Of a stretch of 15,198 bases of DNA, positions 71 through 8,383 are shown piece by piece. Origin of the DNA: Nitrospirota bacterium. GTDB lineage: Bacteria > Nitrospirota_A > Leptospirillia > Leptospirillales > Leptospirillaceae. Location: positions 1-15,198 of the forward strand of contig DAIBSV010000029.1 in NCBI GenBank assembly GCA_027415455.1. The letters are read 5' to 3'. Both the position numbers and the translations under genes were made by a program. Under the pieces are notes generated by a model that was given only the letters and a program-made list of their open reading frames with translations, was not told the origin of the DNA and did not search any database. Each line of letters begins with the position of its first letter. Positions within the stretch are counted from its first letter, which is position 1.

Positions 71-805
71 CTACCCCTCCCGACAGGCCGTACAACTTCG
101 GGATTTCTTCACGCGAAAGGAACGGGTCGAGAGATCCATCCCCTCGAACACCGTCATCCGGTTCTCCACCTCCCTGCCGTATCCGGACAGGATGCGGAGG
201 GCCAGGACCGCCGCCATGGCCCCCACCGCCCCCGAGATCGCCCCCAGAACGGGAAAGCCCAGGGGGTCCCACGCCGGGTCCCCCTCGGGAAAGAGGCACT
301 CGAGACAGGGACCCGTGCCGGGTCCAAGAGGAACCACCATCCCTTCCATCCCGTTCATCGCGGCAAAAATGAGAGGTTTTTCCGCCTTTCGCGCCATTCT
401 GTTCAGGAGGAAGCGCTCCTCGAAGTTTGTCCGGGCGTCGATCAGGAGGTCGGAGGAGGCCACCAGACTTTCCATCCAGGGCGAGATCCGGGCGTCGATG
501 GCCGTGATCCGGCACCCGGGCACCTGCCGGGAGAGCCGCTCGGAGGCCTGGGCGACGCGGCTTTTTCCAATCCCCGCCCTCTCCATGAGGGTCTGCCGGT
601 TCAGGTCGGGAAGCTCGAGGTCTCCCGCATGGACCAGAACGAGGTTTCCGACCCCTCCCATCGCGAGATACTGGGCCACGACGCCCCCGACCCCCCCGAT
701 CCCGGCCAGGAAGACCTGGCTCCTGGCCAGGCGCGCCTGGTTTTCGTCCGTCCACCCCGGGAGAGTCGACTGGCGCTCCAGAAGATGTCCGCCCACGCCC
801 GTCAC
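71..805 (-). CDS. hesA: HesA/MoeB/ThiF-family adenylyltransferase-like protein
   Basis: The 244-residue product is an E1-like ThiF/MoeB/HesA protein. It begins LLERQSTLPGW (8-18), has the nucleotide-binding GIGGVGG at 35-41 and PDLNRQTL at 66-73, K81 in GIGKSRV, NFEERFLLN at 127-135, and two CxxC pairs, C167/C170 and C238/C241, that would hold the structural zinc. In MoeB the segment before NFxxR reads DCTDN, whose second Asp is essential; here it is DARTN, so that Asp is T126. HesA genes are common in nif clusters and are thought to help molybdenum or Fe-S metabolism. The start is GTG at 805, overlapping the nifV stop; a second GTG at 799 is possible. MoeB is the alternative; context favours HesA. 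Confidence 0.85.
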   Translation of the reverse strand: MTGVGGHLLERQSTLPGWTDENQARLARSQVFLAGIGGVGGVVAQYLAMGGVGNLVLVHAGDLELPDLNRQTLMERAGIGKSRVAQASERLSRQVPGCRITAIDARISPWMESLVASSDLLIDARTNFEERFLLNRMARKAEKPLIFAAMNGMEGMVVPLGPGTGPCLECLFPEGDPAWDPLGFPVLGAISGAVGAMAAVLALRILSGYGREVENRMTVFEGMDLSTRSFRVKKSRSCTACREG

Positions 806-1983
806 GTTCCCTGGCGCGCGGGCGAACCGCCCTGTCCGGCCTCGATGATCGCCATGAAATGGGAGAGGATGGTCTGGGCGGGCACGATCCCCTTCAGACG
901 CCATCCTTCCTCCCGGACAATGGGAACCAGACGATCCAGAATCTCCGGCGGCGGACGGTATCCCATGCGCTCGAGCACGTTCCGGATGCCCGCCCGTCCG
1001 GTCTGGTGGGTCACGATGATTTTCCGCTTCGACCCGACCTGATCGGGAGAAAAGAGCTCGTAGTTCGCCGGCTCCTTGATGACCCCGTCCACGTGGATCC
1101 CCGACGAATGGTGGAAGATCCGGGAACCCACGACGGGCCGGTAGGGGGACAGGGTCCGCCCGATGGCGGTATAGAGCCATCGGGAGATGTGGGCGAGCCC
1201 CGGAAGATCGATCCCGGTCTCCGCCTCCTCGGGGCCCGAGAAGGCGAGGGCGAAGGCCACCTCCTCCATCACGGCGTTTCCCGCGCGCTCTCCGACCCCG
1301 GTCACCGTCGTGGAGAGGAACCGGGCTCCCGCGTGAAAGGCCGCCACCGTGTTGGCCGTCGCCATTCCCAGGTCGTTGTGGCAGTGGACCTCCACCGGGA
1401 CCCCCCATCGGGAGACCTGCCCGATCCGCTCCGCGATCTCCAGGGGATGGTGGCGGCCGACGGTGTCGCAGTACCGGACGCGGATTCCCCCGGACTCCCG
1501 GACCGCCCCCACGAAGTCCTCGAGAAACCCCATGTCGGCCCGCGAGGCATCTTCGAGGCCGACGGAGACGCGGACGCCTTCCGACGACAGCCGCCGAATC
1601 GACCGCCGGACCCGCTCGAGGGCCTCGATCCGGCTCATACCCCGAACCGAGGCGAGATGGCCTTCCGATGTCGGAAAGGAGAGATGCACCCGGCGAAAGC
1701 CCAGCCGGAGCGCCGCGTCGAAGTCCTCCTCCAGGGGCCGGAGCCAGGGAAAGAGCTCCGCGGGGACGGGAAGGGTCAGGAGAACCCGCAGGTCGGCGAT
1801 TTCATGTTCTCCCAGACAGGGGGTTCCCACCTCGATTTCCCGGACGCCGATCCTTGAGAGCGTCGTGACGATCGCCATCTTGGTGGGCCGATCGAAGAAA
1901 ACACCCGGGGACTGACCACCGTCGCGAAGGGTCGTATCCACGAAGACCGGGCCGACTGCCTGCGTTTTTGTCCCCTCCTCCAT
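802..1983 (-). CDS. nifV: Homocitrate synthase NifV
   Basis: NifV condenses acetyl-CoA and 2-oxoglutarate to homocitrate, the organic ligand of FeMo-co. The 393-residue product is of normal length. The catalytic/metal motif FVDTTLRDGGQSPGV spans 14-28 (R20, D21), the metal-binding HCHNDLGMATANTVAAFHAG begins at H200 with H202, GVGERAGNA lies at 229-237 and HHSSGIHVDG at 291-300; the latter is typical of homocitrate/isopropylmalate synthases. There is no C-terminal leucine-feedback domain, which argues against LeuA. The usual DGEQ is DGGQ here. The ATG at 1983 has AGGGAGG 7 nt upstream; the open frame to 2193 overlaps the DUF683 gene and is not coding. The stop overlaps the next gene by 4 bp (GTGA). 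Confidence 0.95.
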   Translation of the reverse strand: MEEGTKTQAVGPVFVDTTLRDGGQSPGVFFDRPTKMAIVTTLSRIGVREIEVGTPCLGEHEIADLRVLLTLPVPAELFPWLRPLEEDFDAALRLGFRRVHLSFPTSEGHLASVRGMSRIEALERVRRSIRRLSSEGVRVSVGLEDASRADMGFLEDFVGAVRESGGIRVRYCDTVGRHHPLEIAERIGQVSRWGVPVEVHCHNDLGMATANTVAAFHAGARFLSTTVTGVGERAGNAVMEEVAFALAFSGPEEAETGIDLPGLAHISRWLYTAIGRTLSPYRPVVGSRIFHHSSGIHVDGVIKEPANYELFSPDQVGSKRKIIVTHQTGRAGIRNVLERMGYRPPPEILDRLVPIVREEGWRLKGIVPAQTILSHFMAIIEAGQGGSPARQGT

Positions 1984-2032
1984 CCTGCTCCCTCCCTTCA
2001 GGCCTATAGGACCAATGGGCCGTCGCCGCCTT

Positions 2033-2230
2033 TCAGGAGGCGCTGGCCCGTTCGAACGCCTCCTTGGCCTCGGCCCATTCCCGGTGCTTTTCAATGGCCT
2101 TCCGGGAGACCTCCTCGATGCGCTGGTAGGCCCCCGGAAGCTCCTCGGTGAGATCGTGAAGCTCCATCGCCGTTTCCGCCGCCTGTCTGGCAAGCTTCCG
2201 GTAGCGTCCCTCCAGTTCCTTCAGGTCCAT
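2033..2230 (-). CDS. DUF683 / CCE_0567-family nif metalloprotein
   Basis: A 65-residue, all-helical small protein of the DUF683 (PF05082, CCE_0567) family, which forms antiparallel helical hairpins and has been reported to bind metal. The sequence MDLKELEGRYRKLARQAAET is followed by AMELHDLTEELPGAYQRIEE (21-40) with the family's LHDL-E-LP motif around H25-D26, and a second helix, RKAIEKHREWAEAKEAF. The start at 2230 is fixed by a strong AAGGAGG 4 nt upstream. An upstream in-frame ATG at 2332 lacks such support and its extra residues are non-conserved. It sits between the ANTAR gene and nifV in the sigma-54 unit. Its role in nitrogen fixation is not established. Confidence 0.87.
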   Translation of the reverse strand: MDLKELEGRYRKLARQAAETAMELHDLTEELPGAYQRIEEVSRKAIEKHREWAEAKEAFERASAS

Positions 2231-2240
2231 CGATCCTCCT

Positions 2241-2348
2241 TCATGACTTCTCCCGGAACCGGACTTCCGGTCCCGCAATGTCGAAGGCCGGGCTCTCGCC
2301 CGCTCCCTCGATCTCCCCCTTGAGAATGTCAAGGGCCACGTTCTTCAT
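2241..2348 (-). CDS. 35-codon in-frame continuation of the ANTAR gene, or separate small ORF
   Basis: Directly after the ANTAR TAG, in the same frame, comes ATG and 34 more codons ending in TGA at 2243-2241. The first residues, MKNVALDILKGEIEG, align without gap to the end of the ANTAR domain (consensus about KL-r-d-VA-a-al), so this is most simply the severed C-terminus. The rest (SPAFDIAGPEVRFREKS) is not recognised. There is no ribosome binding site of its own, although TAG-ATG adjacency could allow re-initiation. AAGGAGG for the DUF683 gene begins just past its stop. Whether it is translated alone, by readthrough, or not at all cannot be told from sequence. Confidence 0.5.
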   Translation of the reverse strand: MKNVALDILKGEIEGAGESPAFDIAGPEVRFREKS

Positions 2349-2855
2349 CTACAGCCGCCGCTTCATGCTCTCGGCCCGGATTCTCCGGTAGGCCCGATCC
2401 TCGGTCATCCCCTCCTGCTTCACCAGCACCCATTTCGCCCGCTCGATGATCTTGCGCTCGAAGGTCTCGTCTTTGAGCTTCTGGTTTTCCTCGCAGACGG
2501 TGCAGAAGTCCCGGATGTGGAAGACCGCCTCCTTGAGAAGGGAGGCGAAACGCAGGTCGCAAAAAGGCTGAAGCATGACTCCGGTCAGGCAGTCCTTTCC
2601 CTGCGCGTCCCGCCGCTCCATCAGGAGAATGATCGGAATGGGCGGACCGGCCCCGACGCTCTGGACGATCTGGAAAAAGGTCCCGAGAGACTCCCCCCGG
2701 TCGAGGAGGATTCCGTCCACGTCGAGCGATCCCGCCTGGGCCAGAAAGGCCTCCAGGGAGAGGACCGAGACCCGCTCCACGCCCATGGAGGTGAGCTCCC
2801 GAACGATCTCCCCGTGGCGGCTCGTGTCTTTTTGTATCAGTGCGATCGTTCGCAT
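2349..2855 (-). CDS. ANTAR-domain (NasT/AmiR-type) transcription antitermination regulator, shortened by an in-frame TAG
   Basis: ANTAR proteins bind paired hairpins in leader RNA and prevent termination. The 168-residue product has an N-terminal pseudo-receiver (about 1-118) with a possible phospho-acceptor D52 in GILLDRGES; the usual receiver KP is Q96-P97. A coiled linker (CEENQKLKDETFERK, 121-135) leads to the ANTAR helices: IIERAKWVLVKQEGMTEDRA at 136-155, then YRRIRAESMKRRL. The frame stops at TAG (2351-2349) in the middle of the last conserved ANTAR helix, and the same frame continues for 35 codons with a good match to the missing helix. The start is ATG 2855 with GAGAGGGG close upstream, about 25 nt after the predicted sigma-54 start site. 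Upstream ATGs as far as 2951 lie in or before the promoter. Confidence 0.85.
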   Translation of the reverse strand: MRTIALIQKDTSRHGEIVRELTSMGVERVSVLSLEAFLAQAGSLDVDGILLDRGESLGTFFQIVQSVGAGPPIPIILLMERRDAQGKDCLTGVMLQPFCDLRFASLLKEAVFHIRDFCTVCEENQKLKDETFERKIIERAKWVLVKQEGMTEDRAYRRIRAESMKRRL

Positions 2856-2890
2856 CGTCCCCTCTCTTTCCTGACGCTCACGAGTGGACA

Positions 2891-2907
2891 AGCAAATGCG
2901 GTGCCAG
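2891..2907 (-). promoter_or_regulatory. Sigma-54 (RpoN) promoter for the ANTAR-DUF683-nifV-hesA unit
   Basis: On the minus strand the sequence CTGGCACCGCATTTGCT matches the -24/-12 consensus, with GG at 2905-2904 and GC at 2893-2892 separated by exactly 10 bp. Transcription should start near 2880, about 25 nt ahead of the ANTAR ATG at 2855. The surrounding gap is the most A+T-rich stretch in the window. Sigma-54 promoters are the norm for NifA- or NtrC-controlled nif genes, so this unit is likely induced under nitrogen limitation together with the rest. Confidence 0.85.
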
Positions 2908-2937
2908 GAAACAAAAGCAAAATCAAACGAAGACTTG

Positions 2938-2967
2938 CAACAACGCATCATTCAACCAGCGTTGTTG
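2938..2967. repeat. 9-bp inverted repeat upstream of the sigma-54 promoter
   Basis: CAACAACGC (2938-2946) and GCGTTGTTG (2959-2967) are perfect inverted copies with a 12-bp spacer. The dyad centre lies about 72 bp upstream of the start site predicted for the sigma-54 promoter, a place where an enhancer-binding activator could sit. It is not the NifA consensus TGT-N10-ACA. As RNA it could also form a hairpin about 35 nt after the nifI2 stop, but no T-run follows. The assignment as an activator site is inference. Confidence 0.5.
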
Positions 2968-3001
2968 TTCGCGCAAAATTGATTCCGAGAAGACAATAAT
3001 G

Positions 3002-3424
3002 TCAGATAGAGGCCAATCCCCGTTCGCCGGTCCGGATCCGGAGGCTTTCCTCGAGAGGGGAGACGAAAATCTTGCCGTCCCCCATCCAGCCGGTCCGGTT
3101 TGTGCTCATGATCAGGTCGATCACTTCGTCCTTCATGGCCGAAGGAATGACGATCTGGAGCATGCGCTTCGGGATCCAGAAGACCGGACGCGTCAGCGAA
3201 TGGACCAGCGCGAAGGAGGCGGGGGTCAGGTGCCGGGTGATCTTCGAGACCGATTCGTATTCGGCCGGAACCTCCCGGTCGATGTCGGTCATGACGTTGC
3301 CGCCCTGAAGACCCCGCCCGCTGACAGTCGTGATGGTCATTGACCCGAGACCGATGGCCTCGAGGGCGCGCATGGTTGGCGCCACCTTGTCGCGGCGGAT
3401 GATGGCCGTTATTTCGAGAAGCAT
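3002..3424 (-). CDS. nifI2: NifI2, nif-dedicated PII regulatory protein
   Basis: This is the partner of NifI1 in ammonium-dependent inhibition of nitrogenase. The 140-residue product keeps the PII fold: LEITAIIRRDKVAPTMRALE at 3-22, GLGSMTITTVSGRGLQGG at 25-42, a long T-loop region of about 45 residues to IPKRMLQIVIP at 84-94, the B-loop TGWMGDGKIFVSP at 111-123 and RIRTGERG at 129-136. The long T-loop is what distinguishes NifI2 from GlnB. The ATG at 3424 has AAGGGAG upstream. This appears to be the last gene of the long operon; the next 146 bp hold a promoter for the following unit. Confidence 0.88.
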   Translation of the reverse strand: MLLEITAIIRRDKVAPTMRALEAIGLGSMTITTVSGRGLQGGNVMTDIDREVPAEYESVSKITRHLTPASFALVHSLTRPVFWIPKRMLQIVIPSAMKDEVIDLIMSTNRTGWMGDGKIFVSPLEESLRIRTGERGLASI

Positions 3425-3449
3425 CGCATTCTCCCTTCGACGGGGCCGA

Positions 3450-3767
3450 TCACTCGGCCTTTTCCCCGGTCCTGATGGTGTAGACCTCGCTCACAGGAGA
3501 GACGAAGACCTTTCCGTCCCCCTCGTAACCCACATAGGCGGCATTTTTGATGACGTCGATGATCGTCGCCACCTCGTCGTCTTTCGCCACGATCATGAGC
3601 ATGACCTTGGGAAGCTCGTCGTAGTGGATCGGACCGACCTTGATCCCCTTCTGCTTCCCCCGCCCGAAGACATTGGTTTTCGTCATCGCGGGAAAGCCCT
3701 TGGCCTCGAGCGCCAGCACCACGTCGTTTTCCTTTTCCGGCCGCACGATGGCCCGAATCATCTTCAT
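3450..3767 (-). CDS. nifI1: NifI1, nif-dedicated PII regulatory protein
   Basis: NifI1 forms a hetero-oligomer with NifI2 that binds and inhibits dinitrogenase when ammonium is present; 2-oxoglutarate and ATP relieve this. The 105-residue product starts MKMIRAIVRPEKENDVVLAL, has the NifI1-specific block GFPAMTKTNVFGRGKQKGIK at 24-43, a short T-loop ending HYDELPKVMLMIV at 48-60, the nucleotide-binding B-loop GYEGDGKVFVSP at 80-91 and the C-terminal TIRTGEK. The AMTK and GRGKQKGIKVG segments separate it from GlnB and GlnK. The ATG at 3767 has GGGAGG 7 nt upstream. It is followed by nifI2 after 25 bp. In many archaea and anaerobes the pair lies between nifH and nifD; here it lies at the end of the accessory operon. 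Confidence 0.9.
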   Translation of the reverse strand: MKMIRAIVRPEKENDVVLALEAKGFPAMTKTNVFGRGKQKGIKVGPIHYDELPKVMLMIVAKDDEVATIIDVIKNAAYVGYEGDGKVFVSPVSEVYTIRTGEKAE

Positions 3768-3799
3768 GCCCGTCCTCCCTGGTTCGTTGTTGTTCCTCT

Positions 3800-3824
3800 G
3801 GATCCCGTCACCGGAACGGGATCC
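3800..3824 (-). other. Perfect 9-bp hairpin directly after the nifW stop
   Basis: Arms GGATCCCGT and ACGGGATCC (3800-3808 and 3816-3824) pair perfectly around a 7-nt loop. The hairpin begins at the base after the nifW TAG and lies in the 57-bp nifW-nifI1 gap. Reading on the minus strand, no T-run follows (AGAGGAACAACAACG), so it is not a classical terminator. On the plus strand a TTTTT lies 7 nt beyond it, but no plus-strand gene ends here. It could set the relative level of nifI1-nifI2 mRNA by attenuation or by protecting the upstream message (inference). Confidence 0.6.
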
Positions 3825-4157
3825 CTAGCTCTTTTTCCCGATGCCTTCCGGATGGAAGGCAACGTTCACGCCCGAGGGGTTCTGCCGGAAAACCTTGAAG
3901 AGCGCCTCCTCCTGGGCCGTCCGGGTCAGGAAGGTTTCGTAGGCCCGTTCGAGGGCCTTGGCATAGGCTTCCCGCTTGGCTTCCGGCGAGGCTTCCGCCG
4001 GCCATTCCCGCTCGATTTCCTCCCGGAACTCCCCGAATTTCCTCAGAATGTGGAGACGATTCACCGAGACGACCTTCGGGTCGAATTCGACCCCGAAAAA
4101 CCTGAAATAATCTTCCGTGTCGGAAAATTTCTTGAGTTCCGCTTCCCAGTCTTCCAT
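3825..4157 (-). CDS. nifW: Nitrogenase-stabilizing/protective protein NifW
   Basis: NifW binds the MoFe protein and helps its maturation or oxygen protection. The 110-residue product has the family core (PF03206): FSDTEDYFRFFGVEFDPKVV at 11-30 followed directly by SVNRLHILRKFGEF at 31-44, then a helical segment ending EEALFKVFRQNPSGVNVAF at 83-101. The length is typical. The ATG at 4157 follows GGAGGAGGGG. The TAG stop is directly followed by a perfect hairpin before nifI1. Confidence 0.94.
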   Translation of the reverse strand: MEDWEAELKKFSDTEDYFRFFGVEFDPKVVSVNRLHILRKFGEFREEIEREWPAEASPEAKREAYAKALERAYETFLTRTAQEEALFKVFRQNPSGVNVAFHPEGIGKKS

Positions 4158-4179
4158 CTCTCCCCTCCTCCGAAGGCCT

Positions 4180-4491
4180 TCAGGACGCTGCCAGCTCTTC
4201 GTGCGTATAGCATTTTTTTGGACAGACCTTGGCGCAGGACTCGCACCCGATGCACAGTTCAGGATGGACGATGCTCATGACCTTCTTGTCGATCTCGTCC
4301 TCGTTGTCGGCGGTGACGGGAACCACCTCCCCCTCATCGTCGAGTCCCATCAGTTCCAGGATCCCCCGTCCGCACACCTTGAAGCAGCGGCCGCACCCGA
4401 TGCACCTGTCCGCATCGATCGCGCTCACGAACCGGGGGATCCAGATGCCCCCTCCCCGTGTCGGGGCGCTCACACACGTCGACTCCGCCAT
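4180..4491 (-). CDS. fdxB: Nif-specific ferredoxin III (FdxB)
   Basis: The 103-residue protein is a 2[4Fe-4S] ferredoxin of the nif-specific ferredoxin III type. The two cluster motifs are regular: C30xxC33xxC36xxxC40 ([15 protein letters not shown]) and C80xxC83xxC86xxxC90P ([16 protein letters not shown]), separated by a 39-residue acidic linker. The N-terminal [14 protein letters not shown] segment is characteristic of this subfamily. The last cysteine motif has an extra C94. The ATG at 4491 has GGAGG 5 nt upstream, 21 bp after the SIR2-like gene, and the stop is 22 bp ahead of nifW. It probably donates electrons to nitrogenase or its assembly (inference from family). Confidence 0.93.
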
Positions 4492-4512
4492 CTGAACCTC
4501 CGTCTTTTTTCT

Positions 4513-5412
4513 CTATCCTTTCCGCAGCCGGGCCAGAAGCTCCGGCAGAAAGACTTCATTGAGTGACACCGGGAGCACCGTGATCTCCTCCCGTTCGAAG
4601 AATATCCGCTCCTTGCCCGTCTGGGTCCCGGCCATGACCGCGAAATGGTTTCTTGCCGAACGTTTCATGATCTGCCGGGCGAAAATGCGCGACGTCTGGT
4701 TGTCGAACCGGCACCCGAGGAAGAGGTAATGGCGGCCCGTCCGATGCTCCTGGACCCATTTGGGAATGGGCGTCTGGATGTCGATCTCGGTGAGAACCTC
4801 CACGAAGTCCGCGTCGGAGAGCAGAAGCTCCGTCCCGGGAATCCGGGTTCCCAGGGGGCGGTAGAGAACCCGGTCCGAAGGAGAGGCCTCCTCCACCGGG
4901 ACCCACCCCTCCTCCGTCCGGCGGTCGAGGCGGTACCATCGGTCCCGGTATTCGGCCCGGCTCACCCCGCTGATCTGGATACCGCCCGGCTCCACCAAAA
5001 ACTCAGAGGAGGCCGACCCGTACCAGGCATCGACCACAAGACCGAGGGGATGCTCCTTCAGAATCCGGTGCACGGGAGCGGGCGGAGTCCCGGGCCGGAA
5101 GATCTCTTCCGCCAGGGCCAGAAGGGTTTTCCGGTGCTTGTGGGATTCGATGTACTGGGCGATCTCGTGCACCTTCCCCCTGAGTCGTCCGGGAACGGAG
5201 ACGCGTTCGGCCAGAACGGCCGCCAGCGCCCCCTCGGTGACCGGATAGCCGGGAGGCTCCGGGTAGAGGTCGGGCCCCAGGTAGACCACCAGCCGATCCT
5301 CCCTCCACAGGGAGGCGATCCGGTCCAGGGCCTCCTCGAGAAAGGCCCCGGAACTTCCGTGAAACACGGCCCCGTCTTCCTTCAAAACCCCTTCGATCGC
5401 CATCTCCCTCAC
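4513..5412 (-). CDS. SIR2-like domain protein (SIR2_2 type), catalytic residues missing
   Basis: The 299-residue protein follows the layout of SIR2-like domains (PF13289): LVVYLGPDLY at 41-50 in place of the NAD-binding LxGAGxS, a helical GALAAVLAERV, VHRILKEHPLGLVVDAWYGS at 114-133 in place of the TTNYD segment, VLYRPLGTRIPGTELLLSD at 182-200 in place of the KLHG segment, and the well-kept YLFLGCRFDNQTSRIFARQI at 229-248. The catalytic Asn/Asp of TTNYD and the catalytic His of LHG are absent (W130, G132, L187), so NAD hydrolysis or deacylation is unlikely. The start is GTG at 5412, overlapping the previous stop by 4 bp; an in-frame ATG follows at 5403. Its role beside nifT and fdxB is unknown. 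Confidence 0.75.
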   Translation of the reverse strand: MREMAIEGVLKEDGAVFHGSSGAFLEEALDRIASLWREDRLVVYLGPDLYPEPPGYPVTEGALAAVLAERVSVPGRLRGKVHEIAQYIESHKHRKTLLALAEEIFRPGTPPAPVHRILKEHPLGLVVDAWYGSASSEFLVEPGGIQISGVSRAEYRDRWYRLDRRTEEGWVPVEEASPSDRVLYRPLGTRIPGTELLLSDADFVEVLTEIDIQTPIPKWVQEHRTGRHYLFLGCRFDNQTSRIFARQIMKRSARNHFAVMAGTQTGKERIFFEREEITVLPVSLNEVFLPELLARLRKG

Positions 5413-5684
5413 TCCCGGACCGCGAGGAGAATCCCCCCCGCCATCCTGACATCGGACACCACCGAGACGCAGTGGTCGTTGGTATTGATGAAGTGGACCG
5501 CCACCGTTCCCGCCATCCGGGCGGGCGTCTCGGCCACGTCGGAGGCCGGTGCCGCCACGAAGACCACTCCGGGAAAACGCTCCCGCAGAAGCCGCAGCGT
5601 TCCGCGTCCCAGCCCCTGCCAGTTCTTTTCGACGATGTCGCTCACGACATCGACCACCGCATCCTCCATCGCGTCCTCCCTCAT
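5409..5684 (-). CDS. DUF6129-like small nif cluster protein
   Basis: A 91-residue soluble protein of unknown function. An N-terminal helix (DAVVDVVSDIVEKN) and a basic helix (LRLLRERFPGV at 30-40) precede the strands VVFVAA at 40-45 and VAVHFIN at 61-67, then NDHCVSVVSD at 69-78 with a conserved-looking DHC and a GGILLAV C-terminal strand. This pattern resembles the DUF6129 family, small proteins I associate with nif clusters; I give that name with moderate confidence. The ATG at 5684 overlaps the nifT stop by 4 bp, but an ATG at 5669 has GGGAGG 5 nt upstream and may be the true start. Its stop overlaps the GTG of the SIR2-like gene by 4 bp. Confidence 0.7.
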   Translation of the reverse strand: MREDAMEDAVVDVVSDIVEKNWQGLGRGTLRLLRERFPGVVFVAAPASDVAETPARMAGTVAVHFINTNDHCVSVVSDVRMAGGILLAVRE

Positions 5685-5890
5685 CCGGAAACCTTCCGGG
5701 CTTCGACCGTCAGCGGAAGCGTCTGTCCCGGCGCGATCTCCGGCAGCTCCAGCACCATCCCGTTCGCCAGCGTCACCTTCCCTCCGAACAGGCTCTCCCG
5801 GTCGGAGTCGACGATCGGCTCCTCCAGGTCCTTCTTCGGCACGTAAACGGAAAAGACTCCCTCGGCATTCTTCCGGACCATGACCTTCAT
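5681..5890 (-). CDS. nifT: Nitrogen fixation protein NifT (FixU)
   Basis: NifT is a small protein common in nif clusters, with no essential role established. The 69-residue product has the family hallmarks: MKVMVRKNAEGVFSVYVPKK at 1-20 with the VPKKDLEE motif, LFGGKVTLANGMVLELPE at 34-51, and LPLTVEARKV near the end. The length is typical (about 70). The ATG at 5890 has an AAAGGA ribosome binding site about 10 nt upstream. The frame extends to 6100, but that part is a shadow of the NifU-C-like gene. The stop overlaps the next gene by 4 bp (ATGA). Confidence 0.93.
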   Translation of the reverse strand: MKVMVRKNAEGVFSVYVPKKDLEEPIVDSDRESLFGGKVTLANGMVLELPEIAPGQTLPLTVEARKVSG

Positions 5891-5942
5891 CTTTTTGGCG
5901 TCCTTTCCCGACACACGGTGATCAGCCGGGGCCCGATCCACC

Positions 5943-5958
5943 CCGGACCGAAGCCCGG
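5943..5958 (-). other. Intercistronic hairpin with UUCG tetraloop upstream of nifT
   Basis: On the minus strand the sequence reads CCGGGC-TTCG-GTCCGG: a 6-bp stem (one G-U pair) closed by C-G around a UUCG tetraloop, an exceptionally stable RNA element. It lies in the 79-bp gap between the NifU-C-like gene and nifT, about 50 nt before the nifT ATG. No T-run follows, so it is not a standard terminator. A role in mRNA processing or differential stability is inference. Confidence 0.5.
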
Positions 5959-5969
5959 CAGGGCCCTCT

Positions 5970-6269
5970 TCAAAGCGTCTCCTCGGGGACCGGACAGACC
6001 GGAACCACCGCGGTGACCCTGTCGTCCCTCTCCCGAAGATAGCCCTCGATCCGGGCCACGACCGCCCTCTTTTCGGCGCAGGAGCGCGTGAAGGGACCAT
6101 ACAGCCTCACCACCACGCGCCCGTCGGTTCCGACCCCGGCGAGCCGGACGTCTCCTCCGGAGAGGATCAGTTCGCACCGGATCGGATCCATGATTTTTGC
6201 GAGCGACCAGTAGAACTGCCCCACGAAATCGTCCCTGTCGCCGTCCGGCTCCTCAAAGATTTCGTCCAA
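5970..6269 (-). CDS. NifU C-terminal (Nfu)-like protein without the CxxC motif
   Basis: The 99-residue protein aligns without gaps to the NifU C-terminal domain (PF01106): IMDPIRCELILSGGDVRLAG at 26-45 matches the IRP-L-DGGDVELV block, VVVRLYG at 52-58 matches VRLTG, and ARIEGYLRE at 72-80 matches the helix before the V-VV strand. In true Nfu proteins VRLTGAC is followed by a CxxC that binds a bridging 4Fe-4S cluster. Here the two positions are F60 and S63, and a lone cysteine, C64, sits one residue later. It is likely not a standard cluster carrier. The start is TTG at 6269 with GGGGGAGG 5 nt upstream, overlapping the preceding gene by 17 bp; the first ATG in frame is at residue 27, inside the domain. 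Confidence 0.7.
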   Translation of the reverse strand: MDEIFEEPDGDRDDFVGQFYWSLAKIMDPIRCELILSGGDVRLAGVGTDGRVVVRLYGPFTRSCAEKRAVVARIEGYLRERDDRVTAVVPVCPVPEETL

Positions 6270-6591
6270 CGCCGCCTCCCCCGGTTTTTTTGTCCTGTTT
6301 CCTGATCCTTGGGGACCCGCCTCCGACGGGTCCCGGAAGAACCATCAGATCCTCCTCGAAACAGCCGACGACCCGTTCCCTGGAAAAGGCCACGAAGTAG
6401 ACCCACCGGTCCCGCTCCTCCTGGAATCCGAGTCCGAGGATCTTTCCGCGGTCCCCTTCCCCGATCAGCCGCTCTCCCGGAAGGACGCTCCTGTAGGAGC
6501 CGTCGTTGTCGATGTCCCGCAGAACGACCACCCGCTGCCCCGGTCGCATGCGGGCGGGGTGATTCATCCTCCCGGGGGACAGGGCGCTCAC
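6253..6591 (-). CDS. Second NifZ-like domain protein
   Basis: The 112-residue product is a divergent member of the NifZ family: RPGQRVVVLRDIDNDGSYRS at about 16-35, LPGERLIGEGDRGKILGLGF at 37-56, then WVYFVAFSRERVVGCFEEDL at 63-82. These align with the RNDGT, GE-L-GD-GYV and YIYAV/VGC-EL blocks of NifZ, but the FLQQFY core is missing. The tail (about 30 residues) is glycine- and lysine-rich. I favour a GTG start at 6591 because it overlaps the nifZ stop by 4 bp, as at other junctions here, and has GAAGGA 8 nt upstream. An ATG at 6567 is possible, but GGGAGG abuts it directly. It is probably a tandem duplicate that diverged (inference). Confidence 0.75.
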   Translation of the reverse strand: MSALSPGRMNHPARMRPGQRVVVLRDIDNDGSYRSVLPGERLIGEGDRGKILGLGFQEERDRWVYFVAFSRERVVGCFEEDLMVLPGPVGGGSPRIRKQDKKTGGGGVGRNL

Positions 6592-6905
6592 GGAAGGGTT
6601 CCTTCGGAGGCGGCTCGCGGGGACACCTCCTCGGGATCGTCGTCGTAGTCCAGGGATTCGAGCTCGCGACGCTTGCATCCGATCGTCACCCCCCGCTCCG
6701 GGAGGTAGACGGCATAGATGTAGAACTGCTGGAGAAAGGTCCCGATGCTCCGGATATACCCTTCGTCCCCCTTCCGGCCCAGGATCTCCCCCACGTCCTT
6801 CTGGGGAAAGGTGCCGTCGTTCCGGATGTGCTTTTTGAGCCGGACCTTCTCCCCGAACTCGAAGAAGGGAGGTCCGGTCAGTTCGACGATGTCTCCGTCC
6901 GCCAT
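6588..6905 (-). CDS. nifZ: Nitrogenase P-cluster maturation protein NifZ
   Basis: NifZ assists formation of the second P-cluster of the MoFe protein. The 105-residue product carries the whole family signature (PF04319): FEFGEKVRLKKHIRNDGTFP at about 15-34, VGEILGRKGDEGYIRSIGTF at 38-57 with the FLQQFYIYAV block at 57-66, and GCKRRELESLD at 76-86. The tail is short and acidic. The ATG at 6905 has GGAGG 6 nt upstream. It is followed, with a 4-bp GTGA overlap, by a second NifZ-like gene. The sequence is a close match to the family, so I am confident of the name. Confidence 0.93.
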   Translation of the reverse strand: MADGDIVELTGPPFFEFGEKVRLKKHIRNDGTFPQKDVGEILGRKGDEGYIRSIGTFLQQFYIYAVYLPERGVTIGCKRRELESLDYDDDPEEVSPRAASEGTLP

Positions 6906-6930
6906 GATGCCCCTCCGCCCGATAAATGTC

Positions 6931-7143
6931 CTACGCCCGGCTTCCCGCCGCCTCCCCGGCGACCCGGGCGAACTCTTCCGGCTCGAACCGGAAGACTCCC
7001 CGTCCTCCCGAGAGGGATTCGTAACGGTCGCGGGTGTTCCGGGAAAGAAAGTTGAACCACGCCTGGGGGGTCAGCCCCTCCGGACATCCCGATATTTTTC
7101 TGACGCTTCCGTCGTTCGCGAAGACAACGTGAACCATTTCCAT
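6931..7143 (-). CDS. Small conserved-looking nif cluster protein, function unknown
   Basis: A 70-residue soluble protein that I cannot assign to a named family. It begins MEMVHVVFANDGSVRKISG, continues with CPEGLTPQAWFNFLSRN and a GGRGVFRFEPEEF segment, and ends in an alanine-rich helix. The pattern (beta hairpin with a DGS turn, then a helix with WFNFL, then a strand) looks like a compact folded domain. I chose the ATG at 7143 because GGAGG lies 9 nt upstream. The frame also opens at an ATG at 7248, but that start overlaps the DegT-like gene and has no ribosome binding site. It lies 76 bp after the DegT-like gene and 25 bp before nifZ, so it is part of the operon. The stop is TAG. Confidence 0.7.
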   Translation of the reverse strand: MEMVHVVFANDGSVRKISGCPEGLTPQAWFNFLSRNTRDRYESLSGGRGVFRFEPEEFARVAGEAAGSRA

Positions 7144-7219
7144 GTCGGACTTCCTCCATTTGGCCTCGTCCCCCGGGAAGACCGGCGGCCGGAGCTCCCC
7201 CGGGACAAAGGCGTCTCTG

Positions 7220-8383
7220 TCAGTAGATCGCGGCGCCGGCCCCGACATTTGTTGCCGCCTCCTTGAAGCGCTCGACGATGGCGGCCGCCTCTTCCGGAGT
7301 CATCCCGGGATGGAGCGGAAGCGCGATCGCGCGCTCCGCCAGTTTTTCCGCAACCGGGGCCATCCCCTTCCGCATCCCCCGGGCCGCAAACCACGGATGA
7401 AGGTGGATGGGCGCCGGGAATGGACGGGCTTCGATTCCCGCCCCGACGAGATCGTCGACGATGGCGTTTCTCGAGAGGACCGAAAACCTTGTTCCCAGGT
7501 GGACCATGTAGGCAAACCAGTTGACCCAGTCCACCTTCGGCGACTGGTACAGATCCTTGACCCCCTCGAAGGAGCGCATGGCCTCCTGGTAGGCGTCGAG
7601 CACCAGCGCCCGCTTCTTGATCCCCCCGGGAAGCCTCGAGAGGGACCGGAGCGCGAGCCGGGCAAGTCCCGGAGAAATGGTGAGTTCCAGGGGGAGAAGG
7701 GGGGGCGTTCCCGGGGGAAGGGATGAGGATTCCCCGCCCCGAAGCGTCCGGAAAAGAAGATCCAGATCCTCCCGGTCGGTGAGGATGGCCGCATAGGACT
7801 CTCCCAGATTGGGCTGGGGAGCTCCGAAGGCCAGGATCGACACGTCTCCGAAGCTTCCGGTCCGCCGTTCCCCGATTTCCGAAAAGAGCGATTCGGTCGC
7901 GTCCTCCACCAGCGCCACCCCCTTCTCCCGGGCGAGCCCCTCGAAGCGCTCCCAGTCGGCCGGATGGCCCAGTGTGTTCGAGACCAGGAGAAGCCGGGTC
8001 CGGGGGGTGATCTTCCGGGCCGCCTTTTCCGGATCGAGGGTGAAGGACCAGGAGTCGATGTCGGAGACGGTGAGCGTCGCATTCCTCCAGGCCACGGCCC
8101 GGGCCATCTGAAACCAGGAGAAGGGGGAGGCGACCACCTCGTCCCCCTCCCCGATCCCGAGACCCGACATCACCAGATACAGGGCGATCGTGGGTGTGGG
8201 AACCACCAGGGCCCGGGCCCGGCCGAAGACGAAACCCAGCCGGCTTTCGAGTGTTCCGACAGGGTCGCTCCAGGCTTCCTGACCGAGTTCCTCCCTCTGG
8301 AGCTGCTCCTCCTCGGGGCTCCATTGGGGAAGGTCGAAGGGGATGGCCTTTTCCGGCCCCTCTTTTTTCGGCATCGCCTTCAT
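7220..8383 (-). CDS. DegT/DnrJ/EryC1/StrS aminotransferase-fold protein lacking the PLP lysine
   Basis: The 387-residue protein has the length and fold landmarks of DegT-family sugar aminotransferases: LGIGEGDEVVASPFSWF at 75-91, DIDSWSFTLDPEKAARKITPRT at 108-129, LVEDATESL at 158-166, GSFGDVSILAF at 176-186 and the C-terminal PFPAPIHLHPWF at 321-332. The active site is altered. Aligned to the usual FSF-x3-KNLG segment, the Schiff-base lysine is Q190, the phosphate-binding serine is A185, and the EDAAQ glutamine is E164; D161 is kept. It is therefore probably not a PLP aminotransferase; a structural or binding role is possible (inference). The ATG overlaps the nifS stop by 4 bp, so it is made together with NifS. 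Its function in nitrogen fixation is unknown to me. Confidence 0.82.
   Translation of the reverse strand: MKAMPKKEGPEKAIPFDLPQWSPEEEQLQREELGQEAWSDPVGTLESRLGFVFGRARALVVPTPTIALYLVMSGLGIGEGDEVVASPFSWFQMARAVAWRNATLTVSDIDSWSFTLDPEKAARKITPRTRLLLVSNTLGHPADWERFEGLAREKGVALVEDATESLFSEIGERRTGSFGDVSILAFGAPQPNLGESYAAILTDREDLDLLFRTLRGGESSSLPPGTPPLLPLELTISPGLARLALRSLSRLPGGIKKRALVLDAYQEAMRSFEGVKDLYQSPKVDWVNWFAYMVHLGTRFSVLSRNAIVDDLVGAGIEARPFPAPIHLHPWFAARGMRKGMAPVAEKLAERAIALPLHPGMTPEEAAAIVERFKEAATNVGAGAAIY

Follow-up and report, generated by a model that had tools for sequence, protein, structure and literature searches.

The question raised by this locus is whether a regulator gene of a nif cluster has been broken by a nonsense mutation, is expressed by way of a programmed event at a stop codon, or appears broken in a single assembled sequence. 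The window, meaning the whole stretch of 15,198 nucleotides that was analysed, carries an ANTAR regulator gene that starts at a conserved ATG at 2855 and meets an in-frame TAG at 2351-2349, 168 codons later. Past the TAG the frame continues with MKNVALDIL... for 35 codons, to a TGA at 2243-2241; the stop and the continuing frame described in the initial annotation are thus both present in the window sequence. Two PII genes and nifW lie upstream of the ANTAR gene, and nifB, DUF269, NifX-like and nitrogenase-component genes are found further along the window. A gene with a SIR2-like domain (PF13289) also lies within the nif cluster, at 4513-5412 on the minus strand. The interrupted gene, its stop and the genes downstream of it are as follows:

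71..835, minus strand: hesA-like gene of the ThiF family, downstream of the ANTAR gene
802..1983, minus strand: nifV-like gene with an HMGL-like and a homocitrate synthase domain, downstream of the ANTAR gene
2033..2230, minus strand: Rop-like gene (PF05082), downstream of the ANTAR gene
2241..2855, minus strand: ANTAR regulator gene, here interrupted; in relatives of the same type it consists of 204 codons and a TGA
2349..2351, minus strand: window-private TAG at codon 169, where the sister genome and relatives encode serine

The 168-residue piece encoded ahead of the TAG is a member of the ANTAR domain family, matching the PF03861 profile over positions 2-43 of 54 with 47.5 bits (curated cut-off 27.3), and the intact protein of a sister genome, G000, matches it over positions 2-54 of 54 with 59.3 bits against the same cut-off. 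A complete three-helix ANTAR domain is absent from the window reading and present in the sister genome and in relatives. The two profile spans bear out the claim that ungapped homology lies on both sides of the TAG, and because this homology runs through the stop, chance is irrelevant to the observation.

What the stop removes was judged from an AlphaFold model of a homologue (P0001; mean pLDDT 66.8, block pLDDT of 75 to 93 across residues 131-180), in which the ANTAR helices are predicted at residues 125-148, 152-166 and 170-184. Codon 169 had been placed inside the last conserved helix; in the model it sits in the loop ahead of that helix, and the TAG would remove the predicted helix 170-184. 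In an ungapped alignment, with the numbering matched through the M-N-K-R-A-R residue pattern, Ser169 appears to correspond to R177 of EutV. RNA binding by EutV is reported to be abolished by M172A and by the triple mutant N173A/R175A/R177A (PMC8934654), and the three-helix architecture of ANTAR domains is described as likely to be strictly kept (PMC7496416). Because of these EutV mutants and this architecture, a truncated product of 168 residues is expected to lose RNA binding.

A comparison of codon 169 in relatives, proposed as a check in the initial annotation, was carried out. The sister genome, which is co-specific with the window, is 99.73% identical to it over 7,824 bp (20 mismatches and one gap), and a second contig of the same genome is 99.78% identical over a further 5,022 bp (10 mismatches and one gap). 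Its codon 169 is TCG, serine. The search for relatives covered 21 genomes of the family, all of those returned by family and class searches. Of these, 19 contained a match of some kind and 13 an orthologue of full length. Serine occupies codon 169 in all 13 of the latter, encoded by TCG or TCC in 12 genomes and known from the protein only in the thirteenth (L024), and it is likewise present in nine loci from named assemblies, which are partly the same assemblies as the family genomes. Ser169 and the following Met170 are shared by all 25 homologues from the protein search. TAG at this codon is therefore found in none of the 25 homologous proteins and none of the 13 genomes with a full-length gene. 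The proposal that the stop replaces a usually basic residue, one base from AAG or CAG, does not hold for this family, in which the position is an invariant serine and the relatives instead use TCG or TCC. Elsewhere among ANTAR proteins, EutV and NasR have Arg at the aligned position, Rv1626 has Thr and AmiR has Pro. Two TGA codons flagged in other genomes, G020 and G003, were considered as further examples of interruption and set aside, as both lie beyond the ANTAR domain, at a variable or natural C-terminus. At the locus in G020 (L015), the TGA ends the ANTAR protein early, past the ANTAR domain, and the frame remains similar afterwards.

The differences between the window and its sister are unevenly spread. 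In the first half of the window there are 21, of which nine fall in 2350-2464 and five in 493-516, leaving seven for the remaining 7.7 kb. By sequence comparison, the window carries what appear to be two short patches, each from a different congener, with a private change beside them:

2353..2463, unstranded: patch that matches another species (L003/L012) exactly over 111 bp, with a smallest informative core of 2382-2439
2464..2464, minus strand: window-private change that turns Ile131 into Thr; the 25 homologues have Ile, Val or Leu there
471..520, unstranded: second patch, in hesA, that matches a third species (L006) exactly over 50 bp; the sister differs at 493, 500, 503, 504 and 516

Overall, L003 is approximately 87.5% identical to the window. 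No exact match between the two exceeds the 111-bp run, and the second longest is 56 bp; the longest exact match of the sister to L003 is also 56 bp and is located elsewhere. In the 122-bp stretch starting at 2353 the window has one difference to L003, the fewest of any stretch in 110-7700 (mean 15.3), whereas the sister has seven (elsewhere a minimum of 4 and a mean of 15). The widest interval free of sites specific to the lineage of the window and its sister is 2341-2508 (167 bp), against an expectation of 7.3 such sites per 111 bp. The second patch follows the same pattern: L006 is approximately 77% identical overall, the 50-bp run in the window compares with a next longest of 35 bp, and the sister, whose longest exact match to L006 is 35 bp and lies elsewhere, is without the patch. 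Exact-run statistics pass over bases inserted in a relative, and a rerun on ungapped sequence gave the same result. In the hesA reading, the patch at 471-520 alters residues 107, 111 and 115.

The two private changes in the ANTAR gene are placed at the margins of the larger patch, with the TAG 3 bp outside one edge and I131T terminating the patch at the other. The switch points fall in sequence common to the sister and L003, which extends over 29 bp on the left (2353-2381); on the right (2440-2474) the two share 34 of 35 bp with the window, the exception being the private base. Private differences also occur away from the patches: one further window-private base, at 7724, is a silent change outside both of them.

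Taken as a whole, these comparisons make the TAG a probable artefact, arising through assembly or sequencing error in a contig that is chimeric or carries errors. The window would represent metagenome-type sequence from a Leptospirillum-related species, into which a stretch of at least 2382-2439 and at most 2353-2474 would have been drawn from reads of another species. The foreign reads would have been joined through sequence common to both species, as a join by short k-mers would need, and base errors would have been left uncorrected at or near the joins, namely the TAG at 2350 and I131T at 2464. We infer that the patches are assembly products and that the two private changes are errors. The larger patch is about the size of one short read. 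For three related assemblies, coverage is stated as 1.6 to 3.4 in the titles of their records, figures that refer to those assemblies and not to the window itself; with coverage this low in related assemblies, the survival of single-read errors is plausible. The patches, of 24-50 and 58-122 bp, are also shorter than expected for homologous recombination. Against an artefact, the window outside the two patches looks clean when compared with the sister, and the other genes that were checked end at their expected stops. If the contig is at fault, the ANTAR gene in the organism is most likely intact and its product 204 residues long.

A real broken allele in one strain, produced by a short conversion tract from another species together with point changes, or by point changes alone, is possible but doubtful. 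Recombination between co-occurring species has been described in Leptospirillum populations and could also create patches. The TAG bases are present in the sequence, the rest of the window is coherent and closely resembles a co-specific genome, and two non-synonymous private changes in the ANTAR gene (the stop at S169 and I131T) are such as relaxed constraint would produce. Equally tentative is the functional part of this reading, that a product ending ahead of helix three of the RNA-binding domain should fail to bind the target RNA, for which the loss of RNA binding in the EutV mutants (PMC8934654) and the alignment of Ser169 with EutV R177 can be cited. Set against a real allele are the position of both changes at or beside the edges of a read-sized foreign patch, the origin of the second foreign patch in a different species, and a break in the ANTAR domain in none of the 13 genomes and none of the 25 proteins among the relatives examined.

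It is improbable that the foreign patch belongs to the sister genome rather than to the window. In favour of this reading, the nine differences in 2350-2464 include seven at which the sister deviates and the base of the window is that of L003 and L005. However, the seven differences of the sister to L003 in this stretch are a normal count of lineage-specific sites and the single difference of the window is the lowest among 122-bp stretches, and a patch in the sister would leave the two window-private changes unexplained.

Highly improbable is the proposal that the TAG is genuine and marks the natural loss, by inter-species micro-recombination, of an undescribed class of ANTAR regulator of nif genes. 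Such a regulator would have a degenerate receiver whose four invariant cysteines could bind a metal or Fe-S cluster and would be expressed from a sigma-54-type promoter ahead of nifV and hesA, and individual strains could tune or drop nif control. The chance that the TAG is a programmed event, whether readthrough, recoding of TAG or a two-piece protein made by coupled re-initiation at the next ATG, is negligible: the frame is conserved past the stop and an ATG directly follows it, but that ATG is the conserved Met170 (25 of 25 homologues), a stop with coding sequence after it occurs in none of the relatives examined (0 of 13 genomes with a full-length gene and 0 of 25 homologues), and six other genes of the window terminate with TAG. 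These six (hesA, nifW, the SIR2-like gene, iscA, nifB and DUF269) had been named correctly, and the earlier judgement that recoding is unlikely is shared here. Among the options given in the initial annotation, a nonsense mutation or sequencing error is favoured by the comparison with relatives, and readthrough and re-initiation found no support.

The intact regulator can be described from the relatives. The homologues are 188 to 212 residues long, with the exception of one fragment of 149 residues, and Cys89, Cys99, Cys118 and Cys121 are invariant in 25 of 25, being visible too in the distant L024. Asp52 is also invariant among the 25 homologues, and in an alignment to known ANTAR proteins Gln96 occupies the position of the receiver Lys. 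With Gln at this conserved position, the protein departs from the canonical phosphorylatable receiver of REC-ANTAR response regulators, and the N-terminal domain gave no Pfam match even at an E value of 10, receiver domain included. The four cysteines in this degenerate receiver form a possible metal or Fe-S site, and the protein may be a redox- or metal-responsive antiterminator of the nif unit; the AlphaFold model is too weak near the cysteines (pLDDT below 50 for residues 95-125) to judge whether they cluster.

Known systems resemble this family in part. EutV (6wsh/6ww6), Rv1626 (1s8n) and AmiR (1qo0) share the C-terminal ANTAR domain, with a sequence match that covers it and the part before it, and they are the top Foldseek matches, with TM-scores of only about 0.3 and rmsd of 13 to 15 for a low-confidence model. 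Rv1626 and EutV have the receiver Lys where Gln96 is found here and AmiR likewise has Gln, whereas the four invariant cysteines distinguish the present family from all three, and the window copy is without the third ANTAR helix. The ANTAR domain is also held in common with the NasR/NasT nitrate antiterminators (4akk was matched), and several sources label the homologues NasT-like; unlike these, the gene lies in a nif cluster, with PII genes on one side and nifV/hesA on the other, and the Pfam search matched no nitrate-sensing domain. Limited literature searches (ANTAR domain, nif, antitermination) returned no description of a nif ANTAR regulator. Two elements were noted ahead of the gene:

2891..2906, minus strand: sigma-54-type -24/-12 site TGGCACCGCATTTGCT, 36 bases ahead of the ANTAR ATG
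2936-2970: inverted repeat CAACAACGC/GCGTTGTTG, perfect over 9 bp, ahead of the ANTAR gene

At the score applied, the window contains no sigma-54-type site other than this putative one, and since shuffled sequence yields 1.4 per window at that score, only its conservation counts as evidence: GG-N10-GC is present in 24 of 24 upstream sequences of orthologues (duplicates included), with the 16-mer starting 51 to 55 bases ahead of the ATG. The CAACAACGC/GCGTTGTTG repeat was rejected as a candidate RNA target of the ANTAR protein, being confined to the window and its sister and absent from the other orthologue upstream regions compared.

What looks like the loss of a nif regulator is best understood as peculiar to a single contig, and a search for short patches of foreign-species identity around a lesion offers a cheap test for similar cases. 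The suggestion that the regulator of this nif unit may be inactive depends on the TAG being real, in which case the allele would amount to a naturally occurring knock-out of a nif ANTAR regulator and the regulator's control would be lost in that strain. The part worth experiments is the intact family, with its four invariant cysteines and conserved sigma-54-like site.
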